Translations under genes and position numbers: made by a program | Assembly (NCBI RefSeq): GCF_025717675.1 | Contig: NZ_JAJIRT010000003.1 | Location: 124,001-188,000 of the forward strand | Direction: 5' to 3' | Origin: Paucibacter sp. DJ2R-2 | GTDB lineage: Bacteria; Pseudomonadota; Gammaproteobacteria; Burkholderiales; Burkholderiaceae_C | DNA: 64,000 nt | Part shown: positions 1,033 to 34,480 of the stretch, piece after piece | Position numbering within the stretch: position 1 is the stretch's first letter | How the letters are laid out: each line of letters opens with the position of its first letter | Notes under the pieces: model-generated | The model's database searches: none | What the model saw: the letters and a program-made list of their open reading frames with translations, nothing else | Told to the model about the DNA's origin: nothing

Positions 1033-3906
<2,874 letters not shown>

Positions 3907-5269: not shown

Positions 5270-5276
5270 GGGCTGC

Positions 5277-5681: not shown

Positions 5682-5691
5682 GGCCTGCTCC

Positions 5692-7260: not shown

Positions 7261-7358
7261 CTAAAATCGGTGGCGCCGGTCTGGCTTCAATCCAGGTGCG
7301 CGCAAGCCGCAGGCCTATCGAGCTGATCCAAGGAGGCGGAACATTTGCAGGAATCAGG

Positions 7359-12275: not shown

Positions 12276-12277
12276 GA

Positions 12278-13729: not shown

Positions 13730-13836
13730 GGGGACACTCCCTTCTTGCTGGTGTTTGAGTATTCAAGAGTAGCGTCGACATGGTTGAAGGCTTCTTCATC
13801 GAAATCCTGTAAGGGCTCGTCGATGTAAAGCCTCAT
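13726..13836 (-). CDS. 36-residue acidic ORF upstream of hxsB
   Basis: ATG 13836 opens 36 codons ending in a TGA that overlaps the hxsB GTG by 4 bases, a coupling pattern shared with the rest of the cluster. The peptide begins MRLYIDEPLQDFDEEAFNHV and is strongly acidic. It occupies the place where hxsD is found in many HXS loci, but is far shorter than HxsD (about 80-125 residues) and I cannot see the LLNDYxLRE motif. It could be a leader for coupling, a truncated hxsD or a new component. The ribosome binding site is weak. Confidence 0.45.
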   Translation of the reverse strand: MRLYIDEPLQDFDEEAFNHVDATLEYSNTSKKGVSP

Positions 13837-20569: not shown

Positions 20570-20671
20570 TTATTTGCAGATCCTGCCGCCTGTCGTTCAT
20601 TTCACCTAGCCTTGAACCTGACCCCGCCGGACGGGTACTCACCGGGCAATGAGTGCCAAGAAAGGGCGGAC

Positions 20672-21124
20672 ATGAGGAAAGCTTCCAAGGTAATGTTGTA
20701 CGGGCTATGCGCTGCATTGGCGGCCATCGCCGGTTGTGGTGGCGGCAGCGGCGAAGGTCTAGATGCCAATGGCAGGCCGATCGGTGAGGGCGACGATCCA
20801 GCGGGACCGATGACGGCCAAGTTCAGCTCCATCCAGTCCCATGTGTTCACGCCCGCCTGCACGGCTTGCCATTCCGGGGCTGCAGCGCCTCGCGGTTTGC
20901 GCTTGGACGCGAGCAACAGCTTTGTGATGCTGGTCGGCGTGTCTAGCGGAGGTGTGCCAGCGCTCAAGCGCGTGGCGCCAGGTGATGCGGACAACAGCTA
21001 CTTGATTCACAAGCTCGAGGGCCATCAGGCCGTCGGAGCTCGCATGCCCCTGGGTGGTCCCTATCTGGACGCCCAGACCATCGGGCTCATTCGTCAGTGG
21101 ATCAACAACGGAGCACAAAAATGA
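20672..21124 (+). CDS. Monohaem c-type cytochrome lipoprotein
   Basis: A 150-residue electron carrier. It starts at ATG 20672, where a lipoprotein signal ends in AIAGC (Cys22); the frame upstream has no signal and is not used. One haem-binding CxxCH sits at residues 63-67 (CTACH), and Met125 (ARMPLGG) is a plausible distal ligand. FSSIQSHVFTPACTACH and the PGDADNSYLIHKLEGH segment match the small cytochrome domain found in many outer-membrane electron-transfer lipoproteins. Its stop overlaps the next start (ATGA), so it is translated with the cytochrome-barrel fusion. Confidence 0.82.
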   Translation: MRKASKVMLYGLCAALAAIAGCGGGSGEGLDANGRPIGEGDDPAGPMTAKFSSIQSHVFTPACTACHSGAAAPRGLRLDASNSFVMLVGVSSGGVPALKRVAPGDADNSYLIHKLEGHQAVGARMPLGGPYLDAQTIGLIRQWINNGAQK

Positions 21125-22203
21125 AGGCCTTTCGATTGCTCATCGGTATGGCTTTTGTGCTGCTGTTTTCAAGTGTCAGTGCTGAGCCCTATCTCGCTGT
21201 TCGAAGCGGTCTCAAATGCGCCGCTTGTCATGTGAACCCCACCGGCGGAGGGCTGCGCAATGCCGTTGGTAATGCATTCGTTCAAGGCGCCATCCCGGCT
21301 ACTTCCTTGCCCGAGGCGCTTCAGGGTTGGAATGGATCGCTGTTCGATGACCGCCTGCGCCTGGGCGGCGATTCGCGTAGCGCTACGACGCGTACCTCAG
21401 TCTCTGGTCAGCCCGTGCGCAGCGTTGGCGGCACCGAGCAGGTGCGGCTTTATGCCGACGTGCAGCTCATCAAGGACTATCTTGGCGTCTACCTCGATCA
21501 GCAGGTTGGACCCGGCAAGGCTGAACGGCAGGAGGCCTACGTGCGGCTGCAGACGCCAGGTCTGGGCTGGTACGCCAAGGCCGGCCAGTTCTACTTGCCC
21601 TTTGGATGGCGCCTGCAGGACAACCTGACTTTTGTGCGCCAGCTGAGCGGCGTGAGCATGACCGTGCCCGACAAGGGGCTGGAGTTGGGGCACGAGAGCG
21701 ATGAGTGGTCGATTCAGTTGGTGCGAAGCAATGGCCCTGGCAACACGGGTGCTTCTAAGGGGCACCAGACCACGGCCCAAGCCACCTGGATGCAACCCTG
21801 GGGCCGTCTAGGTGTCGCTGCTGCTCAGGTCAAGTCTGCGACAGGGGGGCGCCAGGCGTATGGTCTGTTCGCGGGCACGACGACGGGGCCGGTGGCCTGG
21901 CTGGCCGAAATCGACCTGGTCAGCGATGCCGGATATCCGGAGGGCAAGCGTCGTCAAGTTGCCGCGCTACTGGAAGCCAACTGGTTGGTGCGGCAGGGCC
22001 ATAACTTGAAGTTCACGAGTGAGCATCTCGATCCCGACCGCCGCGTGGCTCATGACGACAAAGTGCGATATAGCCTCGTGTATGAGTACACGCCCATTGC
22101 CTTCTTGCAGCTGCGCATGGGCTATCGAAAGTTCGGCGGCATCCCGCAGAACGCAATCGACAACCGGCGACAGAGCTTCGTCGAGCTCCATGGCATGTTC
22201 TGA
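21121..22203 (+). CDS. Cytochrome-beta-barrel fusion (monohaem head, outer-membrane barrel)
   Basis: A 360-residue secreted protein. A signal peptide (1-21, SVSA) is followed at once by a haem-c site, CAACH at 33-37, within LKCAACHVNPTGGGLRNAVGN. From about residue 75 to the end are alternating beta strands with barrel-type aromatics (YAKAGQFYLPFGWRLQD, YSLVYEYTPIAFLQLRMGYR) and a terminal Phe. One haem fused to a small barrel recalls the Cyc2 class of iron-oxidising porin-cytochromes, though the head sequence differs and I do not claim orthology. Translationally coupled to the cytochrome lipoprotein, it could pass electrons across the outer membrane; a non-redox outer-membrane role is also possible. 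Confidence 0.75.
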   Translation: MKAFRLLIGMAFVLLFSSVSAEPYLAVRSGLKCAACHVNPTGGGLRNAVGNAFVQGAIPATSLPEALQGWNGSLFDDRLRLGGDSRSATTRTSVSGQPVRSVGGTEQVRLYADVQLIKDYLGVYLDQQVGPGKAERQEAYVRLQTPGLGWYAKAGQFYLPFGWRLQDNLTFVRQLSGVSMTVPDKGLELGHESDEWSIQLVRSNGPGNTGASKGHQTTAQATWMQPWGRLGVAAAQVKSATGGRQAYGLFAGTTTGPVAWLAEIDLVSDAGYPEGKRRQVAALLEANWLVRQGHNLKFTSEHLDPDRRVAHDDKVRYSLVYEYTPIAFLQLRMGYRKFGGIPQNAIDNRRQSFVELHGMF

Positions 22204-22228
22204 AATCTTCTTGGAACGTCGGACAGAA

Positions 22229-23194
22229 ATGGCCGAGCCGCTCACCAAGCTGTCTTTGGCGACGATCTACTTCACGGAGCGTTGCAACTCGCGCTGTGTG
22301 AGCTGCGACTATTGGCGGCACGGTCGACGAGACATCGAGCTTGCGACCGTGCAGCAGATGCTGCCGGGGCTGCGTGAGCTCGGCACGCAGACCGTGCTGG
22401 TCTCTGGTGGCGAGCCGCTTCTGCACCCGCAATGGGCTGAGATTTCTGAACTGCTGAAATCTAGCGGCCTCAATTTGTGGCTGTTGACAGCGGGCCTGAG
22501 TCTTGCCAAGAACGCAGCTGAGGTTGCAGGGCTGTTCGAGCAGGTGACCGTGTCCTTGGATGGCAGCACGGCCGCGAGCTATTCAGCCATCCGCGGGCTG
22601 GATGCCTTCGAGGCGGTCTGCGCCGGCATCCGAGCCCTGGTGCGCGAAGGTGTGCCCGTGGGGTTGCGCGTGACGGTGCAGCGGCGCAATGCCAGCGAGC
22701 TGGGCGATCTGGTTCGGCTCGCGCGCAAGTTGGGCGTGGGCGGGATTTCCTTCCTGGCTGCGGACGTCAGTCATGGCGAGGCCTTTGGTCGCCATAGCGA
22801 AGTCGCCGAGGGTGTCGCCTTGCGCCCGGAGGACTTACCTGTGCTTGTCGCGGCCCTTGATGCGCTGGAGCGAGACCATGGCGATGACTTCGACAGCGGC
22901 TTTATCGTCGAGACGCCGGCCAAGCTGCGCCGGATCGAGGCCCACTACCGGGCCCTGCTCGGCCAGGGCGAAGCACCGCCGGTACGCTGCAATGCACCCG
23001 AGCACTCGATCGTCGTTGAAGCAGACGGCGGACTGAGGCCTTGTTTCTTCATTGCCGGCCCTACCCAGCTTGGCGAAGCCGGATTGAGCGAGGGACTGAA
23101 CGCCGCCTCCATGCGCCACTTGCGCGCGGACATCCGCGCTGGCCTGCGGCCCGAGTGTCGGCATTGCGTATGCTCCAAGTGGTTTTCGACATGA
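22229..23194 (+). CDS. Radical SAM protein with SPASM-like C-terminus
   Basis: A 321-residue radical SAM enzyme. The cluster motif is Cys19-x3-Cys23-x2-Cys26 (CNSRCVSC) and the SAM contact is SGGEPLL. The C-terminus carries further cysteines (RCNAPEHS, RPCFFIAG, ECRHCVC) arranged like a shortened SPASM/twitch auxiliary cluster, which is common in peptide-modifying enzymes and some sugar or cofactor enzymes. I chose ATG 22229, 26 bases after the previous stop; an in-frame ATG at 22190 inside the preceding gene is possible. Its stop overlaps the methyltransferase start (ATGA). Substrate unknown. Confidence 0.88.
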   Translation: MAEPLTKLSLATIYFTERCNSRCVSCDYWRHGRRDIELATVQQMLPGLRELGTQTVLVSGGEPLLHPQWAEISELLKSSGLNLWLLTAGLSLAKNAAEVAGLFEQVTVSLDGSTAASYSAIRGLDAFEAVCAGIRALVREGVPVGLRVTVQRRNASELGDLVRLARKLGVGGISFLAADVSHGEAFGRHSEVAEGVALRPEDLPVLVAALDALERDHGDDFDSGFIVETPAKLRRIEAHYRALLGQGEAPPVRCNAPEHSIVVEADGGLRPCFFIAGPTQLGEAGLSEGLNAASMRHLRADIRAGLRPECRHCVCSKWFST

Positions 23195-23856
23195 GTCGCT
23201 TTGCCAATGAAGCGGCCTATGACCTCTGGGCCGAAAGCTACCCGCCGCTGCCGCACAACCCGCTGATGCACGCCGAGCAGAGCGCTGTGCTGAGCCTGCT
23301 GCCGGAAGTGATTGGCCGGCGCGTGCTGGATCTGGCTTGCGGCAGTGGGCGCTATGGCCTTTGGCTTCAGCCGCGCGGCGCGAGCCTGATTGTCGGTACC
23401 GACTTGTCCTCCGGCATGCTGGCGCGTGCGCCGCTGGCCCACCGTGTGCGGGCTGATATGGGGAGGCTGCCGTTCTCCGCGGCAAGCTTTGATGTCATTG
23501 TGAGTGGACTCGCCGTCGGCCATGCGCCCAGCCTCAGTGCCTGGATGGCCGAGGCTGCTCGCGTGCTCGCTCCTGGTGGCCATCTCGTGTATTCCGATTT
23601 TCACCCGGCGGCCGCGCGCGCTGGTATGACACGCAGCTTCACCGACGCTGCTGGCGAGCGCCACGAACTGCTGCATGCCGTCTATGACCTCGACGCCCAT
23701 CTGGCGGCTGCCGGGCAGGCTGGTTTGGTGTTGGAGGCCAGCCGCGAAGTGTGTGTCGGGCGCGAGTTGTGTGAGCCCTTCACCGGCTCAGAGGCTTTCT
23801 ATTCACGCTGGGCGGGGCTGGCTGTTGTTTTGGCCTTGAGGCTGATGAAGCCGTGA
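23191..23856 (+). CDS. Class I SAM-dependent methyltransferase
   Basis: A 221-residue methyltransferase of the Methyltransf_11/UbiE-like group. The SAM-binding motif I is VLDLACGSGRYG (45-56), the acidic residue after strand 2 is in GTDLSSGML, and motif IV-like LPFSAASFDVI is followed by RVLAPGGHLVYSDF. ATG 23191 overlaps the radical SAM stop by 4 bases; the longer frame upstream belongs to that gene. Its own stop overlaps the amidohydrolase GTG. Acceptor unknown; an O-, N- or C-methylation of the cluster product is inferred. Confidence 0.88.
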   Translation: MSRFANEAAYDLWAESYPPLPHNPLMHAEQSAVLSLLPEVIGRRVLDLACGSGRYGLWLQPRGASLIVGTDLSSGMLARAPLAHRVRADMGRLPFSAASFDVIVSGLAVGHAPSLSAWMAEAARVLAPGGHLVYSDFHPAAARAGMTRSFTDAAGERHELLHAVYDLDAHLAAAGQAGLVLEASREVCVGRELCEPFTGSEAFYSRWAGLAVVLALRLMKP

Positions 23857-24962
23857 GCTTTCACTTCTTCAATGCGGCCGATGGCATGAGCCTGAGCACG
23901 GAAGGTGGCTTGATTGCTGCCGGGGAGGGGGGCTTGCGTGTGGACCTCGGCGGTGCGCGCTTGCTGCCCGGCCTGATCAACGCCCACGACCATTTGCAGC
24001 TCAACGGCGCACTGCCGCGCCTGAAGTTTCGCGAGGGCTATCGCAATGCGAGCGAATGGATTGCCGACATCACCCCTCGCTTGTCAACCGATCCGTGCCT
24101 GCTTGAGCACCGATCCAGGCCGCGTGTAGAGCGTTTGCGTGCAGGCGGACTGAAGAACTTGCTGAGTGGCGTGACGACGGTCTTGCATCACGACCCGCGG
24201 GATCCCGTGCTGGACGAGCCCGGCTTTGCGGTCGACGCGCCGGCGCCTGGCGGATGGGCGCATTCTCTGGCGCTGGACGGCGATGAGGCCGTGCGCGCTT
24301 CGCATCAGGCGACGCCGCTCGGTCAATCCTGGATCATCCATGCGGCCGAGGGGATCGACAGCGCTGCGGCGCTGGAGTTTGATCGGCTCGAAGCCCTGGG
24401 CTGCATCACGCCGGGCACGCTGCTGGTTCATGGCCTGAGCCTGAGTGCCGCGCAGCAAGACCGTCTTGTTCAGGCGGGCTCTGCTGTTGTCTGGTGTCCA
24501 GGCTCCAACTTGCATCTGTTCGGCCGGACGCTGGACCCCGACGCCTTGTTTCAACAGGGTCGGCTGCTGTTGGGCAGCGACTCGCGCATCAGCGGCGGGC
24601 GGGATCTTCTGGCGGAGCTGGCCCTGGTGCAAGCGCTGACGGGCTGGCATGACGAACGCTTGGAGACCTGGCTGACCGAAGGCGCCGCCCGCCTGCTGGG
24701 CTTGAGCGATCGCGGGCGACTGGAGCCCGGCTTGCGGGCTGATCTGATTGCCTTGCCGCCTGGCCTGCCGCTGGCGCAAGCGACCCGGGCCGACCTGCGC
24801 CTCGTCGTCGTGGCCGGGCAGGCGCTCTATGCCGATGCCGATCTGGGCGAGGCGCTCCAGCTGATGCCGGTGCGGGTGGACGGCCGCGCCAAGGCCCTGG
24901 CTCGGCATCTCCTCGCCCCTGAGCCCGGGTTGGAATTGTTGAACCCTGGGACCTCTGTATGA
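23853..24962 (+). CDS. Metal-dependent amidohydrolase
   Basis: Amidohydrolase-superfamily protein of 369 residues, beginning at GTG 23853 (GTGA overlap). The first metal motif His45-Asp-His47 (INAHDHL) is intact. Later WIIHAAEGID, LLVHGLSL and LLGSDSRISG supply the two further histidines and the catalytic Asp of the cytosine/adenosine-deaminase and atrazine-hydrolase branch. It could deaminate or hydrolyse a nucleoside, guanidine or cyclic amide; the sequence does not distinguish these. Its presence between a methyltransferase and a radical SAM enzyme supports a tailoring role. Confidence 0.82.
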   Translation: MSFHFFNAADGMSLSTEGGLIAAGEGGLRVDLGGARLLPGLINAHDHLQLNGALPRLKFREGYRNASEWIADITPRLSTDPCLLEHRSRPRVERLRAGGLKNLLSGVTTVLHHDPRDPVLDEPGFAVDAPAPGGWAHSLALDGDEAVRASHQATPLGQSWIIHAAEGIDSAAALEFDRLEALGCITPGTLLVHGLSLSAAQQDRLVQAGSAVVWCPGSNLHLFGRTLDPDALFQQGRLLLGSDSRISGGRDLLAELALVQALTGWHDERLETWLTEGAARLLGLSDRGRLEPGLRADLIALPPGLPLAQATRADLRLVVVAGQALYADADLGEALQLMPVRVDGRAKALARHLLAPEPGLELLNPGTSV

Positions 24963-26437
24963 AGCGCGTGCTGCTGATCAACCCTCGCATCACCTCGAAT
25001 GCGCGCTTCCCTCTCGCTGTCATGCATCTCGCTGCGGCGCTGAGGGGCCGTTATGCCACGCGCATCCTCGACGGCAACCTTGACCCCAATGTGCCTGAGG
25101 CGGCTGCTGCCGCGGTGCGCGAGGGTGGCTATGCCGCCGTGGGCCTGTCGGTGATGGGCGGGCCGCAGCTGCCGGGGGCGCTGGCCGTCTCACGCGCCAT
25201 ACGCGCCGTGGCACCCGAACTGCCCATTGTCTGGGGCGGCTATTTCCCGACCCTGTGCACGGACGCCACCTTGAACAGCGACTGCGTGGACTACGCCTTA
25301 CGCGGCCAGGGCGAACAAGGCTTTGTCGAACTGCTGGATGCGCTGACCCAGGGCCAGCCGCTGGGCGAGGTGGCCGGCCTGTCTTGGTGCCGCGAGGGGG
25401 AGATCGTGCACAACGCCGACCGCACCTTCTCGACCGCTCCGCTGCAGCTCGAGCTCAGCTATGACGAGGTGGACGAGCCGCAGCGCTATCTGGGCCCGAC
25501 CTATCTCGGCCACCGCACCACCGGCTATCAGGCCGCCCTGGGCTGTCGCTATCGCTGCACTTTCTGTGGCGTGGCCGCCATGTTCCGTGGCAAGACGGCC
25601 TTACCCGAAGCCGAGCGCCTGGAGCGGGATCTGCGTCGGCTGCAGAGCCGATTCGGTGCTGACTCGGTGCAGTTCTACGACCACAACTTCTTTGACCGAG
25701 AGGTGGAGATGGCGCCGGTGCTGGAGGTCCTGGCTCGCGTGCAGATGCCGTGGTGGTGCTATGCCCGCGCAGATGCGCTGCAGGGCCTGTCCGCTGCCTC
25801 TTGGGCCCAGGTGCGGCGCAGCCGGCTGCGCATGGCCTATATCGGGGCCGAGTCGCCCAGCGACAGCATGCTGCGCGATATGCGCAAGGGAACGCGCTCT
25901 GACCAGACTCTGGCCGTCGTCGAGACCTGCCGCGCCAACGGCGTGGTGCCCGAGCTGTCCTTCATGCTGGCGCCGCCGCACGACCCCGAGGGCGAGACGG
26001 AGAGGACCTTTGACTTCATCCGTCAGGTCAAGCGCCTGCACCCGCAGGCCGAGATCATGTTGCACATCCACACGCCGCTGCCGCCGCGGCGGCTGGGTGA
26101 GGGGCGCTGGACGCCGCGTGACCCGGCATTGCCCAAGGGCTTTGTGTTCCCCGACAGTGCCGATGCCTGGGCGCAAAAGGAATGGGTGGACTACTGGTGC
26201 CACAAGGACGCAGCCTGGCTCAGTCCTGCCTTGCGCGAGCGCATTCGCGACTTCCGAACGGTGCTGGGCTGCCGCTTCCCGACGCTGACCGATATCCGTG
26301 CGCCCGCTTGGCAGAAGACCGCCCTGCGCGCCGCTTCGGCCTGGCGCTACCGGACGGCGCGCTACGACCGGCCGCGCGAGCTTCGCTGGCTGGAGCGCGC
26401 CGTCAAGTTGTGGGATCCCCAACTGAATGCACTGTGA
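24959..26437 (+). CDS. B12-binding-type radical SAM protein
   Basis: A 492-residue protein: an N-terminal Rossmann-like cobalamin-binding-type domain (about 1-140, LLINPRITSNARFPLAVMHL) followed by a radical SAM core. The cluster is Cys196-x3-Cys200-x2-Cys203 (CRYRCTFC). Family motifs YDHNFF and YIGAESPSDSMLRDMRKG resemble BchE/P-methylase relatives. The classical DxHxxG lower-ligand motif is not seen in the first domain, as in many relatives. Typical chemistry is methylation of an unactivated carbon or ring formation. It starts and ends with ATGA overlaps inside the cluster. A second member is at 33083-34480. Confidence 0.87.
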   Translation: MKRVLLINPRITSNARFPLAVMHLAAALRGRYATRILDGNLDPNVPEAAAAAVREGGYAAVGLSVMGGPQLPGALAVSRAIRAVAPELPIVWGGYFPTLCTDATLNSDCVDYALRGQGEQGFVELLDALTQGQPLGEVAGLSWCREGEIVHNADRTFSTAPLQLELSYDEVDEPQRYLGPTYLGHRTTGYQAALGCRYRCTFCGVAAMFRGKTALPEAERLERDLRRLQSRFGADSVQFYDHNFFDREVEMAPVLEVLARVQMPWWCYARADALQGLSAASWAQVRRSRLRMAYIGAESPSDSMLRDMRKGTRSDQTLAVVETCRANGVVPELSFMLAPPHDPEGETERTFDFIRQVKRLHPQAEIMLHIHTPLPPRRLGEGRWTPRDPALPKGFVFPDSADAWAQKEWVDYWCHKDAAWLSPALRERIRDFRTVLGCRFPTLTDIRAPAWQKTALRAASAWRYRTARYDRPRELRWLERAVKLWDPQLNAL

Positions 26438-27534
26438 TGGCACGGGTCGTTCAGATCAGTTTCCATCGTGACCCGCAGGGGCGGGCGCCAGCGCAGCTTT
26501 TGCAGGTCTGGCCGACTGTCCCTCAACTCGCTCAGGCCGCGGCCGCTGCAGGCGCTGATGTGGCGGTCGTACAGGCCTGTGCCTCTGAGGAGCAGCTGCG
26601 GCAAGGCGGTATCGGCTACCACTTTTTGCCCTGCGACAGCGAACCGGAGCGACTGGCCAAGCTGCTTGATCGTCTGCGACACGAGCTGGTGCATGTCCAG
26701 GGCCTGGGCTTTGTCCAGCAAGTGAGGGCGCTCGCTTCCCTGGTCCCAGGTCGCCCCATGGTGCTGCAGGACCGCGCCGATGCACCGCCGCGTCCCTGGC
26801 ACTGGCCGGCCTGGCGGCGCGCGCTGAAGACGGCCCGCGGCCTGATGTTCTGCGCGCGCGAACAGGCCTTGCCCTTTCGCCGCCGAGGCTTGATCGCTGC
26901 GCAGACGCGCATCTATGAAGTCCCTGGTTCGAGCTGCGCCTTCGAAACCCGCGACCCGGCAGCTGCGCGCGCCGACGCCCAGCTGGTTGGTGAACCCTGC
27001 CTGCTGTGGGTGGCACACCTGGATCGCAACAAGGACCCATTGACCGTGCTTGACGGCGTGGCCTTGGCCGTGCCGCGCCTGCCCGGCCTGCAAATGTGGC
27101 TCTGCTATGGCCGATCACCGCTGCATGACGCCGTTCGGGAACGCATGCGTGACCCTTTGCTCGCCGGGCGCGTGCATCTCCTGGGTGCCCAGCCGCATGC
27201 GCGCATCGAGACCTTGATGGCCGCGGCCGACATCCTGGTCCAGGGGAGCCACCGCGAGGCCACGGGCTACAGCGTCATCGAGGCCTTGGCCTGCGGCCTG
27301 GGCGTGGCGGTGACCGACATCCCGTCCTTCCGGGCGCTCACCGGCGGCTGTGAAGCCGCACGCCTGTGGCCGGCCGGTGACGCGTCAAGGCTGGCCGATG
27401 CCCTGGTGGAGCTGGCCGCTTTGCCGGCGACGCAGCGTCGCGCGCTGGCCCGGGCGCGTTTTGACTCGCACTGCTCGGTGGAGGCCCTAGGCCGCCGCTT
27501 GATGGCTGCCTATCAGGACCTGCTTGCCGTATGA
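26437..27534 (+). CDS. Glycosyltransferase, GT4 family
   Basis: A 365-residue GT-B glycosyltransferase. ATG 26437 overlaps the preceding stop (TGATG); the upstream extension of the frame lies in the radical SAM gene. The acceptor-binding N-terminal half is divergent. The C-terminal half has the GT4 donor-site pattern: LLWVAHLDRNKDPLTVLDG, then HREATGYSVIEALACGLGVAVTDIPSFR with the conserved EALACG turn for nucleotide-sugar binding. No membrane helix is visible. With the flippase gene starting inside its last codon, it probably builds a lipid-linked glycan or glycosylates the cluster product. Confidence 0.83.
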   Translation: MARVVQISFHRDPQGRAPAQLLQVWPTVPQLAQAAAAAGADVAVVQACASEEQLRQGGIGYHFLPCDSEPERLAKLLDRLRHELVHVQGLGFVQQVRALASLVPGRPMVLQDRADAPPRPWHWPAWRRALKTARGLMFCAREQALPFRRRGLIAAQTRIYEVPGSSCAFETRDPAAARADAQLVGEPCLLWVAHLDRNKDPLTVLDGVALAVPRLPGLQMWLCYGRSPLHDAVRERMRDPLLAGRVHLLGAQPHARIETLMAAADILVQGSHREATGYSVIEALACGLGVAVTDIPSFRALTGGCEAARLWPAGDASRLADALVELAALPATQRRALARARFDSHCSVEALGRRLMAAYQDLLAV

Positions 27535-28937
27535 GCGACGTGGCCCTGGCCCCCGCAGTCGTCGATTTCCGGCGCGCCTTCCTCGTCAACCTCGCTTCAT
27601 CGATCGGCGGCGTTGCGACACGTTTTTTGCTGGGGCTGCTGCTGGCGCGCCTGCTGCTGCCGGCCGAATTGGGCTTGTATGCGGTGGCAGCGACATTGTT
27701 CGGTATCACCCAGCTGCTGCGTGACGTTGGCTTGTCGGCCTATCTGCAGCGGGAACCCGAGCTGACGGCGCAGCGCTTCTCGGCATGTCTGGGGCTGATG
27801 GCGAGCACAACCGTGGTGGCGACGCTGGCCCTGCTTGTTCTGGCAGAACCACTGGCCCGGCAATTTGCGCAACCCGGTCTGGCGGCGCTGCTGCAGGTGA
27901 TGGCGCTGGGCTTGCTGCCGTCGGCATTCGGCAGTGTCATGGCCGCACTGCAGGTGCGCGAGCTGGCTGCGGCGCGCATTGCCTTTGTCTCACGCATCGG
28001 CACGCTGGGCCATGCGGTCGTGGCACTGTTCCTGTCAGTACAGGGTTATGGTGCGCTGGGCCTGGCCTGGGCCCAGGTTGCCAACGTCTGCATTTGCGGA
28101 CTGGCCTATGCCTGCCTGCCGTCAGGGCGCAACTGGTGGCCATCGTGGCGTGGCTGGGGCGAGGTGCTGCGTTTTGGCCTCCGCGCTTTGCTCGTCAACT
28201 TGCTGAATGGGCTGAACGGCGCGTTCCCTGATCTGTGGCTGGGGCGGTTTGGCTCAGCCCATCTCGTGGGACTGTTGGGCCGCGCCCAGGCCGTGGTCGG
28301 CCTGCTGCAGGCCGTGTTCGGCCATGCCTTGAGTTTTGGTGCATTGCCGATGCTGGCCCGCCAGCATGCAAACTGCCAAAGTTTGGAGCCCGCGCTGCGC
28401 CATGCCACGGCGCTGTTGACGGGCCTGGGTTGGCCGCTGCTAGCCCTGACCGTGGCTCACCGGGAGGCGCTGCTTGGGCTGCTCTATGGTCCTGCCTGGG
28501 TCGACTGCACGCCGGCTGTGCTCCCCCTGGCGCTGATGACCGCGCTGGGGCTGGTGTTCGCGCAGCTCAATGCCGCGCTGGCCGCCATCGGCCGGCCGGA
28601 GCTGGCTGCGCTGCCGATTGGCGTGACGCTGGCTGCTCGCTTGGTCTTGGGCGCGGCACTCTTCGACGGCAGCCTGCTGTCCTTTGCCTGGGCCTTGTTC
28701 GGGGCGGCGGCCGTGGCGCTGCCGGTGCAGCTCTGGCTGGCCGCCCGGCATCTTGACCAGTCGCCGCGTGCGCTGGCTGCTGCGCTGGGTGGCAGTCTGC
28801 TTGCGACCTTGGCGGTCTTGGCCGTGCCGCTGGTCTTCGTACCGATCGCCTGGCTGGCGGCCATGCGCTGGAGCCGCCACCCGCTGCTGGACGAGGCGCT
28901 TCAGCTCATGCGACGGCGCATGACGAGCAGGAAATGA
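27531..28937 (+). CDS. Polysaccharide/lipid-linked oligosaccharide flippase (MOP family, Wzx-like)
   Basis: A 468-residue multipass membrane protein with about 12-14 hydrophobic segments and the opening FLVNLASSIGGVATRFLLGLLLARLL, typical of MOP-superfamily polysaccharide exporters. Charged loops carry RDVGLSAYLQREPEL, a common motif after TM2 (in Wzx/RfbX-type proteins it reads G-ups-L-ups-AL-I-Q-type). It would move an undecaprenyl-linked sugar or glycolipid across the inner membrane. It starts by ATGA overlap; its 3' end overlaps the opposite-strand methyltransferase by 37 bp. No Wzy polymerase or Wzz is present, which argues against a long O-antigen. Confidence 0.82.
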   Translation: MSDVALAPAVVDFRRAFLVNLASSIGGVATRFLLGLLLARLLLPAELGLYAVAATLFGITQLLRDVGLSAYLQREPELTAQRFSACLGLMASTTVVATLALLVLAEPLARQFAQPGLAALLQVMALGLLPSAFGSVMAALQVRELAAARIAFVSRIGTLGHAVVALFLSVQGYGALGLAWAQVANVCICGLAYACLPSGRNWWPSWRGWGEVLRFGLRALLVNLLNGLNGAFPDLWLGRFGSAHLVGLLGRAQAVVGLLQAVFGHALSFGALPMLARQHANCQSLEPALRHATALLTGLGWPLLALTVAHREALLGLLYGPAWVDCTPAVLPLALMTALGLVFAQLNAALAAIGRPELAALPIGVTLAARLVLGAALFDGSLLSFAWALFGAAAVALPVQLWLAARHLDQSPRALAAALGGSLLATLAVLAVPLVFVPIAWLAAMRWSRHPLLDEALQLMRRRMTSRK

Positions 28938-29713
28938 TCACCCAGTCGATTGATGCCCGGCCAGCCGGCCACGCGCCTGTCCAGTGCCCACAGCCTTTCG
29001 TGCCAGCGTGGGTGGCGTTCGGCCAACCACGTCAAATAGGGCGGCGGCACAAAGACACAGAGGCCACGCTGCACTTCCAATTCGAAGTGCGATGCAAAGG
29101 CGGCATGGAACTCTCTTGGCGTGTAGTAACGCGTCCAAATGGTACGGCCGTTCATGCCCACAGCCACGGTGTCGCGCGCAAAGCGGATGCCCGCGCGTGC
29201 CCAGCGGCGCTGCCGCACATAGTGGGCGATCTCCCAGGGGCAGTAGCGGCCGATGACGGTGAAGACCAAGCGGCCGCCGGGTTTGATGAGCCGCGCGCAT
29301 TGGGCGGCGACGGCTCCCAGGTCAGGAACGCAGTTCAGCGGGCCGAGGTTGGAGTAGGCGCCGTCGAAGCTGGCATCACCTTCCAGGTGTTGCAGCTCGT
29401 GAGCACCGATGGCGCGCGCGTCGACGGCCAGTCCAGCGGCGCGTGCGCGGTCGCGCGTGCGCTCCACCATGCGTTCGGACCAGTCCGTCGCCGTCACAAA
29501 GTGGCCTTGGCTTGCCAAATGCACAGCATCCAGTCCGGTGCCGCAGCCCAAGTCGATGAGCCGGTTGCCCGGCTCGAAGCTGCGTCCCAGCCAGCGCCAC
29601 ATCTCGGCTCGCATGTCCTGGATGGCGGTGTTGTTCCCGCGTGGGCCGTCGTAGTCTGCGGCGACGCTGTCGAAGGCTTCTTGAGTGTCAAGCAATTGGG
29701 TTTGTGTCTTCAT
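28901..29713 (-). CDS. Class I SAM-dependent methyltransferase (opposite strand)
   Basis: A 270-residue methyltransferase. Motif I is LIDLGCGTGLDAVHL (about 53-67) and the post-II acidic residue is in TATDWSERM. LINCVPD-type loops (LGPLNCVPDLGAV) and IKPGGRLVFTVIG follow. The C-terminal third (WARAGIRFARDTV...) carries a variable acceptor domain. It is the only minus-strand gene between the flippase and the second glycosyltransferase: its 3' end overlaps the flippase by 37 bp and its start is 14 bp from the divergent TTG start at 29728. It may represent an inserted or separately regulated cluster member. Confidence 0.87.
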   Translation of the reverse strand: MKTQTQLLDTQEAFDSVAADYDGPRGNNTAIQDMRAEMWRWLGRSFEPGNRLIDLGCGTGLDAVHLASQGHFVTATDWSERMVERTRDRARAAGLAVDARAIGAHELQHLEGDASFDGAYSNLGPLNCVPDLGAVAAQCARLIKPGGRLVFTVIGRYCPWEIAHYVRQRRWARAGIRFARDTVAVGMNGRTIWTRYYTPREFHAAFASHFELEVQRGLCVFVPPPYLTWLAERHPRWHERLWALDRRVAGWPGINRLGDHFLLVMRRRMS

Positions 29714-29727
29714 GCGGAGGGCTCGTT

Positions 29728-30828
29728 TTGAAAATCGCGATCGTGGTGCCAGGCGGTGTGGATCGCTCGGGCGAGGTGCGGGTTGTGCCGGCTTTGTTGG
29801 CTTTGCTCAAGCGCCTTGCCGTGCTGCACGAGGTGCATGTGTTCGCTCTGCGGCAGGAACCTGATCCGGGCCAGTGGTGGCTGTGCGGCGCGCGCGTGCA
29901 CAACATCGGTGGGCCCAGCATGGCGCTGGGTCAGGCCCTTGCCCTGTGGGCCATTGCCAAGGAGCACCGGCGCGGCCGCTTCGAACTCATTCAGTCGATC
30001 TGGTCGGGACCCGCCGGACTCGTGGCTGTGCTTGCAGCAAAGTTGCTCGGGCTGCCGAGTGCGGTGCATGTGGCCGGTGGCGAACTGGTGGCCTTGCACG
30101 ACATCGGCTATGGCGGCCGCCTGGCGTGGCGCGGTCGCCTGCGCGAGGCCCTGGTGCTGCGCGGCGCTGATGTGCTGACGGCGGCCAGCCGGCCGGTGCT
30201 TGATCAATTGGCTGCGCTGGGTCATGCGGGTCAACGCCTGCCGCTGGGCGTGGACCTCGCCGAATTCCCGCTCAGCGAACCACGACCGCGCGTGGTCGGT
30301 GCCGCGCTGCGCCTCGTGCAGGTGGCCAGCCTCAACCGTGTAAAGGACCAGAGCTGCCTGCTGCGTGCTTTGGCGCAAGTGCCGAGGGCTGAGCTCGACG
30401 TGATAGGCGAGGATACCTTGAACGGCGAGATGCAGGCGCTCGCTGCGCAACTGGGGGTCAGCGGTCGTGTGCGCTTTCATGGATTTTTGACTCAGGCTGA
30501 AATGCGGCCGTTGCTGGCGCGAGCGGATCTGTATGTTGTCAGTTCTCGCCACGAAGCTGGCCCGCTTGCCATGCTCGAGGCTGCTGTGCTTGGCGTGCCG
30601 AGCATTGGAACTGCTGTAGGCCATCTGGTCGAGTGGACGCCGCAGGCGGCGCTGGTCGTGGCTCCAGGCGATGTGCAGGGGATGGCGGCACTGATCGCCC
30701 GTGTGAACGGTGATGAGGTCTTGCGGTTGCGGCTGGCGCGTGAAGCTCAGCGCTTGGCGCGCGCCGAAGATGCCGACTTCAGTCATGGCCAGTTCGAGCA
30801 GCTTCATGCCGAGTTGGCCGGTCGATAG
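29728..30828 (+). CDS. Glycosyltransferase, GT4 family (TTG start)
   Basis: A 366-residue GT-B enzyme. I chose TTG 29728, giving LKIAIVVPGGVDRSGEVRV, the usual GT4 opening with the Gly-rich acceptor loop, and preceded by GCGGAGGG. The upstream frame is antisense to the methyltransferase. Donor-site signs: VQVASLNRVKDQSCLLRAL, VRFHGFLTQAEM and SSRHEAGPLAMLEAAVLGVPSIGT, with the conserved acidic residue of the EX7E-type element (E-A-G-P-L-A-M-L-E). Its 3' end overlaps the opposite-strand nucleotidyltransferase-like gene by 25 bp. Together with 26437 it implies at least two sugars. Confidence 0.86.
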   Translation: MKIAIVVPGGVDRSGEVRVVPALLALLKRLAVLHEVHVFALRQEPDPGQWWLCGARVHNIGGPSMALGQALALWAIAKEHRRGRFELIQSIWSGPAGLVAVLAAKLLGLPSAVHVAGGELVALHDIGYGGRLAWRGRLREALVLRGADVLTAASRPVLDQLAALGHAGQRLPLGVDLAEFPLSEPRPRVVGAALRLVQVASLNRVKDQSCLLRALAQVPRAELDVIGEDTLNGEMQALAAQLGVSGRVRFHGFLTQAEMRPLLARADLYVVSSRHEAGPLAMLEAAVLGVPSIGTAVGHLVEWTPQAALVVAPGDVQGMAALIARVNGDEVLRLRLAREAQRLARAEDADFSHGQFEQLHAELAGR

Positions 30829-32057
30829 TTGAGGGCGCGGTGCATGGAATACAGCGTCTGCGCCCGAGGCTGCGCGCCGAGCACAAAGCTCAGCGCTTTG
30901 CGCCAGTGCGGCCGGCGCGTCCAGTCCGAGCTGGCCAGGGAATGCTGGCCTTGCAGCATCATCGCGGTGGCGGCCTGCTCCGGTGGATGCAGCCGCCGCC
31001 ACGCCAGGCCCAGCGCATCGGCAGGCCCGTGCGACCATTCGATGCCCGGCAGCAGCGGAATGTCCAGCCGCGACAGCGACACGTCGGCCAACTGCCAGCC
31101 GCCGCAGGCTCGGCGCAGCCAGGGCGGGCATGCTGCAGACGCTGCAACGATGCTGGGCGTCAGGCGGGCGGTCATCGGCTTAGGGAATTGCAAAGGGAAC
31201 AGTTGCTGCGTCAGTGTCAAAACTGGCAAGGCCCACCAAGCGGCGCGGCCGTCGTTGGCCGGAGCCAGCGCCTCATTCCAATCGGCGGTGCTCATGCGCT
31301 CAGCGAGCTGCGCGATGTCGTGCAATTGGATCAGCCTGACGCTGCGAACACACAGATTGCCCGCTGCGTGCATAAGCAGATGGCGCATCAGCGCTGCGAG
31401 GCTGGAGTACGGGTTCAAGCCTGGTTTGGCACCTGGAGAGAGTAGCCCCGCCGTGATGTCGACCTCGCGCAGTGGCAATGGCTCGCGCACGGCTTCATGA
31501 AGCTCGATCTTGATCGGGTTGTGCTCATGCTCGCCGAAGGCGCGGTCTGCGGCTTGTTGCAGCGGCTCGTAGGCGATGTGGCGCTGCTTGGTGATACCGA
31601 CCGCGTAGCCGGCGGCAAGGATCAGCCTGCCGCTCTCGGCAAGGTCGACCGGCTGAGCCAGCAGGTCCACGTCACTCATGGGGCGTTCGCCTTCCGCGTA
31701 GATACTCAGATTCAGAAGGGCCGAGCCCTTCATTGCCAGCAGCGGCAAACCGGCGTCGCGGGCCGCGTGATGCAGGCATTCCAGCAAGGAGCGCACCTTG
31801 CGCTCGCGCCGGCGCCCCTGCTCGGCCTGTTCGGCCAAAAAGGCCTGCCAGGCCGGCGGCCCCGCCCACTGAAGCCGATTGGCCAGCAGCGCGCTCACGC
31901 CGTGCATGACGGACACGGCCATCGCAGCCCGCCATTCGAAATCACTCCAGGCCGGCGCTTGGTGCGTGGCCTGGGTCAGCTCAGCGGACAGACGCTCCGT
32001 CGTGGCCTTCAGCGCAGCTCGCAGCGCAGATGCCGGCACCGCCGTATCTTTCTCCAT
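30804..32057 (-). CDS. Nucleotidyltransferase-family protein (NTP_transf_5)
   Basis: A 417-residue protein. I prefer ATG 32057, which has a GAAGGAAG ribosome binding site; the frame continues upstream to 32201 but crosses the divergent start at 32086. The polymerase-beta-like nucleotidyltransferase core is LLAMKGSALLNLSIY (Lys110-Gly-Ser), then GERPMSDVDLL with the catalytic-type Asp129-x-Asp131, matching the NTP_transf_5 family. Such proteins are often beside HPr-kinase-like genes in lasso-peptide or surface-glycan loci, as here (28 bp from it, divergent). The nucleotide and acceptor are unknown; phosphotransfer or AMP transfer to the product is possible. Confidence 0.8.
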   Translation of the reverse strand: MEKDTAVPASALRAALKATTERLSAELTQATHQAPAWSDFEWRAAMAVSVMHGVSALLANRLQWAGPPAWQAFLAEQAEQGRRRERKVRSLLECLHHAARDAGLPLLAMKGSALLNLSIYAEGERPMSDVDLLAQPVDLAESGRLILAAGYAVGITKQRHIAYEPLQQAADRAFGEHEHNPIKIELHEAVREPLPLREVDITAGLLSPGAKPGLNPYSSLAALMRHLLMHAAGNLCVRSVRLIQLHDIAQLAERMSTADWNEALAPANDGRAAWWALPVLTLTQQLFPLQFPKPMTARLTPSIVAASAACPPWLRRACGGWQLADVSLSRLDIPLLPGIEWSHGPADALGLAWRRLHPPEQAATAMMLQGQHSLASSDWTRRPHWRKALSFVLGAQPRAQTLYSMHRALNYRPANSA

Positions 32058-32085
32058 CTCAACTTCCTTCACGGACGACTCCTTC

Positions 32086-33093
32086 ATGAGCACCTGGCGC
32101 CCCGATCCCCGGCAGATTGCCGACCCGTTTGCCGAACAAGCCTCCTTGCCCCTGCGGCACCGCTTCACTCTGCTCGGCGCTGACGTCGAGTTCTGCAGCA
32201 ACAGTGCCGAACTGCTTGCCCTCGCGGATGAGGCCTACGCCGGTTTGCCGGCGCATGCGATGGGCGGGCCGGCGCTGCAGGTCGAGCTTCGATTGGTGCA
32301 AGAAGGCGCAGAGTTCAGCCGTGAGCCGCCCTCTGCACGCATGTTGGGCGGAGCCGGCTTGTTGGGCGCAGCTATGGATGCGAACAACCTGGCGCTGGTG
32401 AATACAGCCGCCGGTCGCGCCGTCGTGCAGGTGTCGCGTGCGCTCCTGGCGTGGCCCTATCACGTGCGCTATGAACTCATCGAGTTCGCCGTTTTCACGC
32501 TGGCCTGCCGGACACAAGGGCAGTTGGCTTTGCATGCGGGCTGCGTGGGTCTGGGCGGCATTGGCGCGCTGTTGATCGGTGAGAGCGGCGCCGGTAAATC
32601 GACTTTGACCCTGCACGCGCTGGGCGAGGGACTGGACTTCCTGACCGAGGATGCCAGCTTCGTCGATCCGCTGACGCTGCGCGCGACGGGCATCGCGAAT
32701 TTCCTGCACCTGCGCCAGGACGCGTTGCGCTGGGTGGACGATGCAGCGCAGCGCCAACGCATCCAAGCCGCACCGGTCATCCGCCGACGCAGCGGCGTCG
32801 AGAAATACGAACTGAATCTGCGCGGAGGCTGGGCGTCGCTGGCCGCAGAGCCGCTGCGCTTGGCGCATCTGGTGTTCGCGGCGCCGGAGCCGGCGGGCGA
32901 CGGCGAACTGCTGCGGCGCCTCGACGCCGATGAACTTTTCCATCGCCTGCAGCAGAGCCAGCCCTATGCGGCCGGCCAGCCCGGCTGGGCTGTGTTTGCC
33001 CAACGCTGCGCGCGGCTTCATGGCTGGGAGCTGCGCCGCGGCAGCCATCCTCGTGGCGGGGCGCTGGCCGTGAAGGGGTTGCTCATGGCATGA
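32086..33093 (+). CDS. HPr-kinase-like (HprK-related) protein
   Basis: A 335-residue P-loop protein from ATG 32086. The C-terminal half has HAGCVGLGGIGALLIGESGAGKST with Walker A at 165-173, followed by LDFLTEDASFVD, the acidic strand that follows Walker A in HPr kinase/phosphorylase. The N-terminal 140 residues are not the usual HprK N-domain, so it is an HprK-related protein rather than a true HPr kinase, and there is no ptsH beside it. Family relatives phosphorylate peptides (for example lasso-peptide tailoring) or act in HprK-related cassettes with an NTP_transf_5 protein. No PqqD-like gene was found. It overlaps the next minus-strand gene by 11 bp. Confidence 0.8.
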   Translation: MSTWRPDPRQIADPFAEQASLPLRHRFTLLGADVEFCSNSAELLALADEAYAGLPAHAMGGPALQVELRLVQEGAEFSREPPSARMLGGAGLLGAAMDANNLALVNTAAGRAVVQVSRALLAWPYHVRYELIEFAVFTLACRTQGQLALHAGCVGLGGIGALLIGESGAGKSTLTLHALGEGLDFLTEDASFVDPLTLRATGIANFLHLRQDALRWVDDAAQRQRIQAAPVIRRRSGVEKYELNLRGGWASLAAEPLRLAHLVFAAPEPAGDGELLRRLDADELFHRLQQSQPYAAGQPGWAVFAQRCARLHGWELRRGSHPRGGALAVKGLLMA

Positions 33094-34480
33094 GAGCCGC
33101 AGCCGGTTGCAGGGTGTCGATCAGCTGGGACCAGCGGCGCCTGATTTCGTCGCCCGCGTGCTGGCGAACTGAGGCGTCCAATCGGCCCAGATCCACCTGT
33201 TCATGCAAGAGATCGCGCACGGCGCGGTAGACCTCGGTGCTGAAACTGCCGCGGAACATCATGGCCAGCTCGGCGCTGTCGTCCCAATGGGTCTTGCTGC
33301 CCAGCTGGGCCTTGACCTGCTCGTGAAAGCTTGTTCCTGGCAGCGGGTAGGAGACGCTGACGCCGATGTGGTCGGGCCGGGCCTCCTCGATCAGCTGGCG
33401 AGTCTGCAGCAGTTCAGGCAGGCCTTCGCCGAGATAGCCGAGCTGGATGAAGAAGCCCACGCCCACGCCTGCCGCCTGCAAGTCCCGTCGGGCTTGCAGG
33501 ATCTCTTCCACCGTGGTGCCTTTGTTCATGGCGTCCAACACCTTCTGACTGCCGCTCTCGGCGCCAATCCAGGCCTCGCGGCAACCGGCATCGGCCAGAG
33601 CCCGGGCCATGGCCTCGGTGATCAGGTCGGCCCGGGTCTGGATGGAGAAGGGGATGCCGCCGCCGAGCCTCGCCAGCTCGGCCGCGAACTGTTCTACCCA
33701 GTCGACGCGGAAGCCGAAGATGTCGTCGGCGAACCAGATGTGATCCGGGGCGAAGCGCTCCTTCAGCTCCACCATTTCCGCGGCTACGGCCGCAGCGCTG
33801 CGCTGTTGGTATCGCTGGCCCCAGATGGGCTTGGCGCACCAGGAGCAGCGAAAAGAACAGCCTTTGGATGCGGCCATATTGAGACCGAAGTGGCCATGGG
33901 CTGCCACCCAGGTGGTGCGATAGCGCTCGATGTCAACGAGTTCCCAGGCGACCGGTGCTTCAAGCTCAGTGGTCTCTTTGCGTCTGAAGTTGATCGGCTG
34001 CTCGAGCCCGGCGACAAGGTCCGCGTCGCTCAGTCTAGGTCTATCCTGCAGGCGCTGCAGCAGCGCTGGAAGCACGTCAAGCCCTTCTCCGCGGAGTACC
34101 ACGTCCGCACCTGCGTTCCGGTAAACCTCGGGCGCGTCACTGGCGTCAGAGCCAGCCACGACGATGCGCGCTCCGGACTGGCGGCCGCTGGCGATCATCT
34201 GGCAAGCGGCCTCGCGCATCTTGGCCAGGCACATCTTGCTGAGGTAGTTGTAGTTGTCCTCGTACAGCAGCACAACCTCGGGCTGTGTGGCAGCGATTTT
34301 GTCGTCGAAGTCCTGCGTGCCAGCCGCCAGCATCGCGTCGAAGAGGGTGACCTCATGGCCGAGGCGCTGCAGCAATGCTGCAACTTGCAAAGTCGCAAGC
34401 GGAGGGTAGGGCTTAGCGCGTTCGAACTGCTTGTTGTCGAAGCGCAGGAAGAAACTGTGGGCGACCAGGATGGAAAGCAC
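33083..34480 (-). CDS. B12-binding-type radical SAM protein (second)
   Basis: A 465-residue protein starting at GTG 34480 (AAAGGTGAC site); TTG 34537 would add 19 residues without family features. The N-terminal cobalamin-type domain (about 1-140) contains YPPLATLQVAALLQRLGHEV. The radical SAM cluster is Cys208-x3-Cys212-x2-Cys215 (CSFRCSWC). WFADDIFGF and WIGAESGSQKVLDAMNKGT are typical of this superfamily, as is LGYLGEG. It is the outer boundary of the tailoring cluster, convergent with the HprK-like gene. The 1-kb spacing of its promoter from 34902 suggests independent transcription. Confidence 0.87.
   Translation of the reverse strand: MLSILVAHSFFLRFDNKQFERAKPYPPLATLQVAALLQRLGHEVTLFDAMLAAGTQDFDDKIAATQPEVVLLYEDNYNYLSKMCLAKMREAACQMIASGRQSGARIVVAGSDASDAPEVYRNAGADVVLRGEGLDVLPALLQRLQDRPRLSDADLVAGLEQPINFRRKETTELEAPVAWELVDIERYRTTWVAAHGHFGLNMAASKGCSFRCSWCAKPIWGQRYQQRSAAAVAAEMVELKERFAPDHIWFADDIFGFRVDWVEQFAAELARLGGGIPFSIQTRADLITEAMARALADAGCREAWIGAESGSQKVLDAMNKGTTVEEILQARRDLQAAGVGVGFFIQLGYLGEGLPELLQTRQLIEEARPDHIGVSVSYPLPGTSFHEQVKAQLGSKTHWDDSAELAMMFRGSFSTEVYRAVRDLLHEQVDLGRLDASVRQHAGDEIRRRWSQLIDTLQPAAALMP

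Follow-up and report, generated by a model that had tools for sequence, protein, structure and literature searches.

Gene content and extent of the locus

The window analysed here is a 64,000-nucleotide stretch of the genome of Paucibacter sp. DJ2R-2 (contig NZ_JAJIRT010000003.1, positions 124,001 to 188,000), and our subject is a gene cluster within it that combines three radical S-adenosylmethionine (SAM) enzymes with two GT4 glycosyltransferases, a Wzx-type flippase, an HprK-like kinase and a nucleotidyltransferase-like NTP_transf_5 protein. Counted from the first base of the window, positions 17402-34480 form one conserved unit of 17 genes, which begins with the genes for an extracytoplasmic function (ECF) sigma factor, an anti-sigma factor and a subtilase (Table 1). 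Start codons throughout the locus are our own choices. L and G numbers are labels of compared loci and genomes, G000 being the source genome of the window.

An earlier note on this DNA had described 20672-34480 as a tailoring cluster. The cytochrome lipoprotein gene has its start codon at the first of these positions and the gene of the second B12-binding/radical SAM enzyme (B12-radical SAM 2) at the second, and family models and coordinates find every enzyme that it named in its place. The genes it listed belong to the unit; the sigma factor, anti-sigma factor, subtilase and TorF genes, which it left out, extend the unit upstream to 17402. Its remark that most plus-strand genes are joined by four-base overlaps also holds: the seven junctions between 20672 and 28937 comprise five four-base overlaps, one single-base overlap (26437) and one 25-base gap. 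The five genes after 28937 alternate in strand, from methyltransferase 2 (MT2, minus) through GT4b (plus), NTP_transf_5 (minus) and the HprK-like kinase (plus) to B12-radical SAM 2 (minus). According to the gene coordinates, intergenic bases in 17402-34480 total about 140, and the largest gap is 102 bases.

Table 1. Genes and promoter-like sites of the cluster (positions in the window; bit scores are given against the family cut-off where two values are shown)
Feature	Position	Strand	Evidence
ECF promoter-like site 1, before sigma gene	17353..17382	+	9/9 loci holding the region, all used for motif derivation
ECF sigma factor	17402..18022	+	Sigma70_r2 and r4_2 above cut-off; syntenic in 8 other loci
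Anti-sigma factor, zf-HC2 and hydrophobic stretch	18019..18633	+	zf-HC2 31.5 bits vs 22.2; alignment of 9
S8 subtilase	18630..19859	+	Peptidase_S8 107.5 bits vs 21.8; N-terminal export signal by eye
TorF/Gcw_chp outer-membrane barrel	19859..20569	+	PF09694 39 bits vs 24
Promoter-like site 2, 30 bases before cytochrome lipoprotein gene	20612..20641	+	motif search; 10/10 loci holding the region; not used for derivation
Lipoprotein with single c-type haem motif	20672..21124	+	PSCyt1-like, slightly under cut-off (20.9 bits vs 22)
CXXCH motif followed by barrel-like part (by eye), 360 aa	21121..22203	+	no family match; 60-88% identity in 9 other loci
Radical SAM enzyme, SPASM/twitch-like C-terminal cysteines	22229..23194	+	PF04055 56.5 bits; SPASM 20.1 vs 21.5
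Class I methyltransferase 1 (MT1)	23191..23856	+	family model and comparison of loci
Amidohydrolase, TRZ/ATZ-deaminase type	23853..24962	+	PF01979 41.3 bits
B12-binding/radical SAM enzyme 1	24959..26437	+	PF02310 57.2 bits, PF04055 46.6 bits
GT4 glycosyltransferase a (GT4a)	26437..27534	+	PF00534 57.5 bits
Wzx-type flippase	27531..28937	+	PF13440 140.7 bits vs 23; nearest NCBIfam PRK10459 82.4 vs 273
Class I methyltransferase 2 (MT2)	28901..29713	-	PF13649 61.5 bits; 66-90% identity in 8 syntenic loci
GT4 glycosyltransferase b (GT4b)	29728..30828	+	PF00534 75.6 bits
NTP_transf_5 nucleotidyltransferase-like protein	30804..32087	-	PF14907 96.3 bits vs 31.2
HprK-like P-loop kinase	32086..33093	+	sub-threshold family matches; GxSGAGKST invariant in 10/10
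B12-binding/radical SAM enzyme 2	33083..34480	-	PF04055 68.9 bits
Promoter-like site 3, before B12-radical SAM 2	34508..34537	-	6/6 loci holding the region; 5 of these used for derivation

Conservation and occurrence in Roseateles/Pelomonas-type relatives

The gene order and strands of the window are kept, as far as the sequence reaches, in L013, L014, L016-L020 and L023, at 40-90% protein identity (G111 and L020 share a contig, as do G084 and L023, and the count is the window plus eight distinct loci). This order in eight further loci excludes chance as the origin of the gene list, and the scattered homologues that the earlier note had considered as an outcome were not found. When queried with the window proteins, G111 and G084, which belong to the same family, match order and strands from the sigma factor gene (17402) through B12-radical SAM 2. 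The available sequence of L014, L017, L018 and L020 stops before this last gene, which is present on the contig of L020. A partial case is L015, where the arrangement is seen only from TorF onwards: no sigma, anti-sigma or subtilase genes lie within 7.6 kb upstream, and the contig piece ends at B12-radical SAM 1. MT1 and B12-radical SAM 1 are both present in the window, L014, L015, L017, L018 and L020, and both absent in L013, L016, L019 and L023. Their shared presence and absence suggests that they form a linked optional step.

Homology of the DNA to the window starts at 17399 in L014 and at 17402 in L013, and ends near 34546 in L013. Nine other loci were compared and all 24 linked groups checked, and no open reading frame of the flanks connected the window or G111 with the remaining loci. 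In L013, genes for MlaD, an ABC ATPase and a protein without Pfam match (1953-4994) are oriented divergently from the sigma gene and have relatives in L014 and L016-L019. We rejected the MlaD/ABC genes as cluster members; they are not linked to the window or G111, and are linked to L023 via a single frame antisense to sigma only.

The cluster was found in three of 150 genomes of the family, including the window's own, and in neither of the two other genomes of the same genus in the sample. This patchy occurrence fits an accessory unit. A search for the HprK-like protein at E 1e-40 in 399 genomes of the order matched the window's own genome alone. We also considered a recent transfer island on the basis of base composition, and rejected it: the cluster has 65% GC against 57-58% in its flanks, and 28 samples of five kb each, taken from seven stretches of the source genome, have a mean of 63.8% (sd 3.7), so that the flanks (1-17400 and 34900-64000) rather than the cluster are the unusual part. 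An empty site could not be demonstrated, as neither same-genus genome gave a match at E 1e-20 to the two flank proteins searched for. Plasmid carriage was likewise discarded, only six plasmid records being matched, at about 29% identity, from Agrobacterium/Rhizobium.

A shared promoter-like motif

Aligned DNA from before the sigma gene (nine loci) and before B12-radical SAM 2 (five loci) has a two-box motif in common, TTGAACC-N16-GNAYNYA. The window holds three copies, and the independent sites are those before the lipoprotein genes together with the site of G111 before B12-radical SAM 2, because the remaining sites served to derive the motif. With one mismatch allowed, 0.74 matches are expected by chance in the window, and at least three occurred in 6 of 100 shuffles; the three observed are without mismatch. 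Genome-wide there are four exact matches each in G000, G111 and G084, three of the four being inside the cluster, and 0 and 1 in the cluster-less genomes G013 and G144. A reversed-pattern control gave 0, 1, 0, 0 and 4 matches in G000, G111, G084, G013 and G144. The surroundings of the one extra match outside the cluster in each cluster-bearing genome have no DNA similarity among the three genomes. In 21 distant loci (L021-L042 except L023; 352,624 bases) the motif does not occur, and this form of regulation is therefore particular to the Roseateles-type cluster.

The sigma factor would be held by the anti-sigma factor until this protein and the subtilase sense a cell-envelope signal and set it free. 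It would then fire three promoters: the first for its own operon, the second for a plus-strand operon that opens with the cytochrome lipoprotein, runs to Wzx and probably takes in GT4b and the kinase, and the third for the minus strand from B12-radical SAM 2, probably onward to NTP_transf_5 and MT2. By our reading, the C-terminal part of the anti-sigma factor (18019-18633) resembles a subtilisin prodomain, and the subtilase gene adjoins it. This hints at a release mechanism in which the protease would meet its own prodomain on the anti-sigma factor.

Interleaved opposing strands

The alternating genes at the end of the cluster are packed in a constant way. The 3' ends overlap by 37 bases between Wzx and MT2 and by 25 bases between GT4b and NTP_transf_5, each in eight of nine loci, and by 11 bases between HprK and B12-radical SAM 2 in four of five loci. 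Divergent starts of MT2 and GT4b lie 2-29 bases apart (nine loci), and those of NTP_transf_5 and HprK between -89 and 27, a range which depends on the chosen start codons. Terminator-like sites occur at chance level (13 against 12.8). The simplest inference is that two opposing, interleaved transcripts read through antisense stretches, since there is no intergenic room for promoters and the promoter-like sites are confined to the two ends and the front of the plus-strand operon; promoters within coding sequence would be another possibility. An alternating order that is kept down to the lengths of the overlaps makes this locus a natural case for studying opposing interleaved operons.

Conserved residues and remote relatives of the enzymes

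The residues expected for catalysis are conserved across the relatives. In the SPASM-like enzyme the CxxxCxxC motif and five further cysteines are invariant in 16/16 sequences, although the domain match is weak (20.1 bits vs a cut-off of 21.5), and the cysteine triad is invariant in B12-radical SAM 1 (15/15) and B12-radical SAM 2 (14/14). The amidohydrolase keeps H45, H47, H163, E166, H193 and D243 (metal ligands and HxxE) in 14/14, and the kinase its P-loop with H150, K171, E188 and D189 in 10/10 relatives, where the family matches are again weak (Hpr_kinase_C 22.0 bits vs 33.3, TIGR04352 32.9 vs 200). The K-G and D-x-D motif residues of NTP_transf_5 are invariant in 9/9.

The substrate of the radical SAM enzymes is not fixed by sequence alone. 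In the PDB search the SPASM-like enzyme matched BlsE first, PqqE second and then MoaA, and both B12 enzymes matched AprD4 first, 9ccb second and OxsB third. BlsE, AprD4 and OxsB, the best or third-best matches here, are radical SAM enzymes that act on antibiotic sugars or nucleosides. All three enzymes have NCBIfam matches far below cut-off; those of B12-radical SAM 2 are a ladderane-lipid family (104.5 bits), HpnJ (96.4 bits) and B12_rSAM_oligo (TIGR04295, 87.7 bits vs 400). The PDB matches of the amidohydrolase are nucleobase and methylthioadenosine/S-adenosylhomocysteine (MTA/SAH) deaminases. We considered that it may serve in the clean-up of 5'-deoxyadenosine; its match to 5'-deoxyadenosine deaminase reaches just 24 bits, and MTA/SAH deaminase is one of many relatives. 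The kinase and NTP_transf_5 proteins together read as a distant, PqqD-less version of the HPr-rel-A type.

The core in other phyla

A scan of genome contigs with the SPASM alignment gave 52 loci. The core of radical SAM enzymes, methyltransferase, amidohydrolase and glycosyltransferase is also found in Acidobacteriota, Chloroflexota and further Pseudomonadota, while Gemmatimonadota and Myxococcota have a reduced form of it. All 27 loci with a full SPASM protein of at least 38% identity (L013-L039; L024 and L025 come from one metagenome bin) have at least one B12-radical SAM homologue in the available DNA. The same is true of one of the 22 weaker loci L043-L064 (L048), where some contigs are short, and L040-L042 combine a partial SPASM protein with B12-radical SAM 2. 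Of the 27 loci, 18 have the amidohydrolase; it was not seen in L021, L022, L024, L026, L029, L032, L036, L037 and L039, among which there are short contigs. For eight genes, the pairwise distances correlate in 28/28 gene pairs (r 0.47-0.95), the weakest permutation result being 11/500 for the two B12 enzymes; such correlation can also be obtained from shared host descent. Some transfer between phyla is likely, though not proven, as the SPASM tree groups the Acidobacteriota yet splits the Chloroflexota.

The neighbours of the core, of which we gave Pfam names to a chosen subset, belong to polysaccharide pathways in several loci. A Wzy_C O-antigen ligase adjoins it in L030, L031, L032, L034 and L037, and Wzx-type flippases lie near it in L030 and L032. 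GT2 enzymes (L021, L026, L030), an extra GT4 (L030), GT87 proteins (L027, L033), an ABC exporter with an acyltransferase/SGNH protein (L021) and a sulfotransferase (L026) were also found. In Chloroflexota the radical SAM genes are preceded by a small protein with a nucleotidyltransferase-like motif (by eye), different from NTP_transf_5. In Pfam this protein goes unmatched in L027 and L030, and in L033 it gives a sub-threshold match to Polbeta. We infer that it replaces NTP_transf_5.

A search seeded with the amidohydrolase profile, and thus independent of SPASM, covered 398 genomes of the phylum and matched two, the window's own and G359. The latter has nine cluster genes (MT2, amidohydrolase, MT1, B12-radical SAM 1, GT4a, GT4b, NTP_transf_5, B12-radical SAM 2 and HprK), with Wzz immediately upstream (33.7 vs 25.5 bits), a hexapeptide acyltransferase farther up and, beyond this, weaker relatives of the sigma factor, anti-sigma factor and subtilase (28-42% identity).

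In the Acidobacteriota loci L034 and L035 a GT4 is joined to B12-radical SAM 2 in one open frame of 912 and 935 residues. The same fusion occurs in L031 with four masked codons, in L042 the two parts lie in one continuous frame, and L040 has the end of the GT4 part. Pfam recognises GT4, B12-binding and radical SAM domains in L031 and L035, the two fusions scanned. The fusion is a closer link between the radical enzyme and sugar transfer than gene neighbourhood provides, and it offers a single protein for testing the idea of sugar remodelling.

A putative glycan pathway

We suggest that the cluster is one regulon that makes and exports a glycan, either an oligosaccharide or a glycolipid, whose sugars are remodelled by the radical enzymes, and we would put the probability of this reading at slightly under 60%. 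It is based on the conserved 17-gene unit, the three motif copies, the conserved catalytic residues of the aligned enzymes and the occurrence of the core amid polysaccharide genes in other phyla. The two GT4 enzymes would build a short glycan on a lipid carrier, and the SPASM-like and the two B12-type enzymes would alter its sugars by deoxygenation, C-methylation or ring rearrangement. The methyltransferases would cap the glycan, the amidohydrolase would trim or deaminate it, and the kinase/nucleotidyltransferase pair would add phosphate or a phospho-linked group, after which Wzx would flip the product outward. A polymerase or ligase would come from elsewhere in the genome. The earlier note had argued for one pathway, which synteny, the shared motif and the gene fusion strongly support, and had proposed a glycosylated small molecule or glycolipid, which the core neighbours in other phyla and the GT4-radical SAM fusion support in kind.

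Several observations weigh against a glycan. Family-model scans of the cluster proteins recognised no Wzy, Wzz, sugar-nucleotide biosynthesis gene or initiating phosphoglycosyltransferase; the absence of Wzy and Wzz that had been reported earlier is thus confirmed at this locus, while four Wzy_C matches lie elsewhere in the genome and some relatives carry Wzy or Wzz nearby. No part in the making of a glycan is evident for the cytochrome and barrel genes. Similarity to the PDB entries is remote (best 89 bits), PqqE, the second match of the SPASM-like enzyme, acts on a peptide, and 9ccb, second for both B12 enzymes, has no stated function. In NCBIfam the SPASM-like enzyme is closest to ScmF (80 bits), ScmE (68), a sactipeptide maturase (68) and BlsE (49), and B12-radical SAM 1 matches the RiPP (ribosomally synthesised and post-translationally modified peptide) enzymes ApyD (79) and rSAM_ocin_1 (76) beside HpnJ (80.5). 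Pairs of HprK and NTP transferase with known substrates act on peptides (PMC9266682, PMC13381572). Among the neighbours of the core in other phyla are glyoxalase and Uma2 proteins (L033), an alpha/beta hydrolase and a Mur ligase (L031) and a GNAT protein (L036), and two neighbours in L030, two in L026, one in L027 and one in L037 have no Pfam match. Finally, no SPASM or Wzx match was found in the 32 kb of G359 that were read.

More tentatively, the cluster may represent a widespread and undescribed class of glycan pathway, a view that seems to us possible but a little short of probable. Three radical SAM enzymes would rebuild sugars on a lipid carrier, one of them fused to a glycosyltransferase in Acidobacteriota, and the Roseateles-type form would add the kinase/nucleotidyltransferase step and a private ECF sigma factor driving two interdigitated opposing operons. 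To our knowledge, radical SAM remodelling of sugars has otherwise been described for a few small-molecule antibiotics and the hopanoid cyclitol ethers. If the idea is true, a multi-enzyme set for a surface or secreted glycan exists in several phyla and would point to sugars not yet observed in bacteria, while the private sigma factor provides a handle for switching the pathway on.

Other loci in the same genome

On the minus strand at 10505-13729 of the window lies a His-Xaa-Ser system with HxsB (473 bits, cut-off 370), HxsC (329 bits, cut-off 268) and a protein that combines HXS repeats with a peptidoglycan-binding domain. No match to HxsB was found in G111, G084 and the two same-genus genomes. 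About 88 kb from the cluster there is a lasso-type locus (L075, G000:C22, around 244800-247300) with a B2 protein (62 bits vs 33), a macrolactam-cyclase relative below its own cut-off and an ABC protein recognised by eye.

Alternative explanations

The best surviving alternative, which we still regard as unlikely, is a modified glycolipid of the HpnI/HpnK/HpnJ type, where a sugar is set on a membrane lipid, the amidohydrolase deacylates it and the B12-radical SAM enzymes rearrange it without forming a polymer. HpnJ is the first NCBIfam match of B12-radical SAM 1 and the second of B12-radical SAM 2, although both enzymes are far under the HpnJ (TIGR03471) cut-off of 577.6 bits. The order of glycosyltransferase, deacetylase and then radical SAM enzyme is that of the hopanoid cyclitol ethers (PMC12583986), but no hopanoid gene was recognised among the cluster proteins. 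The cluster lacks a polymerase, as this explanation would have it; against it, a Wzx-type flippase is present and Wzy_C or Wzz lies near the core in several relatives.

Slightly less probable is a RiPP pathway, in which the radical SAM enzymes, the HprK-like kinase and NTP_transf_5 modify a peptide that the subtilase trims. The pairing of kinase and nucleotidyltransferase speaks for it: HprK-type pairs phosphorylate and glycosylate lasso peptides, as in the paeninodin and pseudomycoidin loci (PMC9266682), and such pairs also tailor members of the lpp RiPP family (PMC13381572). Peptide-modifying families are among the best NCBIfam matches of the SPASM-like enzyme and supply two of the top three for B12-radical SAM 1, all of them far below cut-off. 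However, scans of the cluster proteins found no PqqD/RiPP recognition element (RRE), cyclase or precursor, and with the few intergenic bases noted above this makes a peptide substrate unlikely. The conserved short open reading frames that the earlier note had proposed to look for did not appear: outside known genes, none was linked between the window and nine other loci, a comparison that weakly conserved peptides of 20-40 residues could escape, and the lone weak match (32.7 bits, with G111) is antisense to the start of B12-radical SAM 2. Its suggestion of a modified peptide encoded elsewhere finds no support either. The single extra motif match of each cluster-bearing genome lies in DNA without counterpart in the other two. 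The lasso locus shares the contig of the cluster, but it is distant, and a search for its B2 family gave nothing in G111 and, in G084, a match with an internal stop. Several relatives of the core, moreover, sit with polysaccharide genes.

Least likely of all is protein glycosylation, with the glycan put on the cytochrome lipoprotein, the barrel and TorF and a phospho-linked sugar made by HprK and NTP_transf_5, for while the cytochrome lipoprotein gene stands first in the glycan operon, behind a copy of the shared motif, and is conserved throughout the window and the nine other Roseateles-type loci, the distant core loci have no cytochrome or barrel match at E 1e-8 and no oligosaccharyltransferase was recognised in the cluster.

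Comparison with known systems

In its layout the locus is like the noncontiguous operons, where genes of opposite strand are interspersed without room for separate intergenic promoters (PMC7154746); in the present case the main operon is followed by two plus-strand and three minus-strand genes in alternation.

The kinase and nucleotidyltransferase can be compared with two systems. As in the HPr-rel-A system (HprK-related kinase A, PqqD and NTP_transf_5), an HprK-type kinase adjoins NTP_transf_5, but the cluster kinase reaches only 32.9 of the 200 bits of TIGR04352 and no PqqD match exists among the cluster proteins. A canonical HPr-rel-A kinase (L074, G000:C29, around 222900-225200; 387.9 bits) is encoded elsewhere in this genome, and its neighbours are a PqqD-like protein (27.1 of 35 bits) and an NTP_transf_5 protein. 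The lasso and lpp RiPP tailoring systems share the pair (PsmK/PsmN, LppK/LppN); unlike them, the cluster has no detected precursor, RRE, cyclase or leader-peptidase partner.

For the radical enzymes, AprD4, BlsE and OxsB are the best, best and third-best solved relatives, at remote similarity. The BlsE model gives the SPASM-like enzyme 49 of 400 bits, and the AprD4 model gives the B12 enzymes 33 and 55 of 500 bits. None of the three is known from a glycan-export locus. In the HpnI-HpnK-HpnJ pathway a lipid-linked sugar is likewise handled in turn by a glycosyltransferase, a hydrolase and a radical SAM enzyme (PMC12583986). The B12 enzymes of the cluster, in contrast, score 96.4 and 80.5 of the 577.6 bits of HpnJ, there are more radical enzymes, and a flippase is present. 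The hydrolase also belongs to another family than HpnK.

With the Wzx/Wzy polysaccharide loci the cluster shares a GT4 pair and a Wzx flippase, and some relatives have Wzy_C, Wzz, GT2 enzymes and acyltransferases. It differs from them in lacking recognised Wzy, Wzz and sugar-nucleotide genes at this locus, in its own ECF sigma factor and in a tailoring set of three radical SAM enzymes, an amidohydrolase, a kinase and a nucleotidyltransferase. Literature searches aimed at such a locus, with subscription journals largely outside their coverage, found no description of one, in line with the earlier statement that it matches no pathway class familiar to the note's author. As its tailoring set and regulation match no locus found in these searches, we place it as a variant among the glycan biosynthesis loci.

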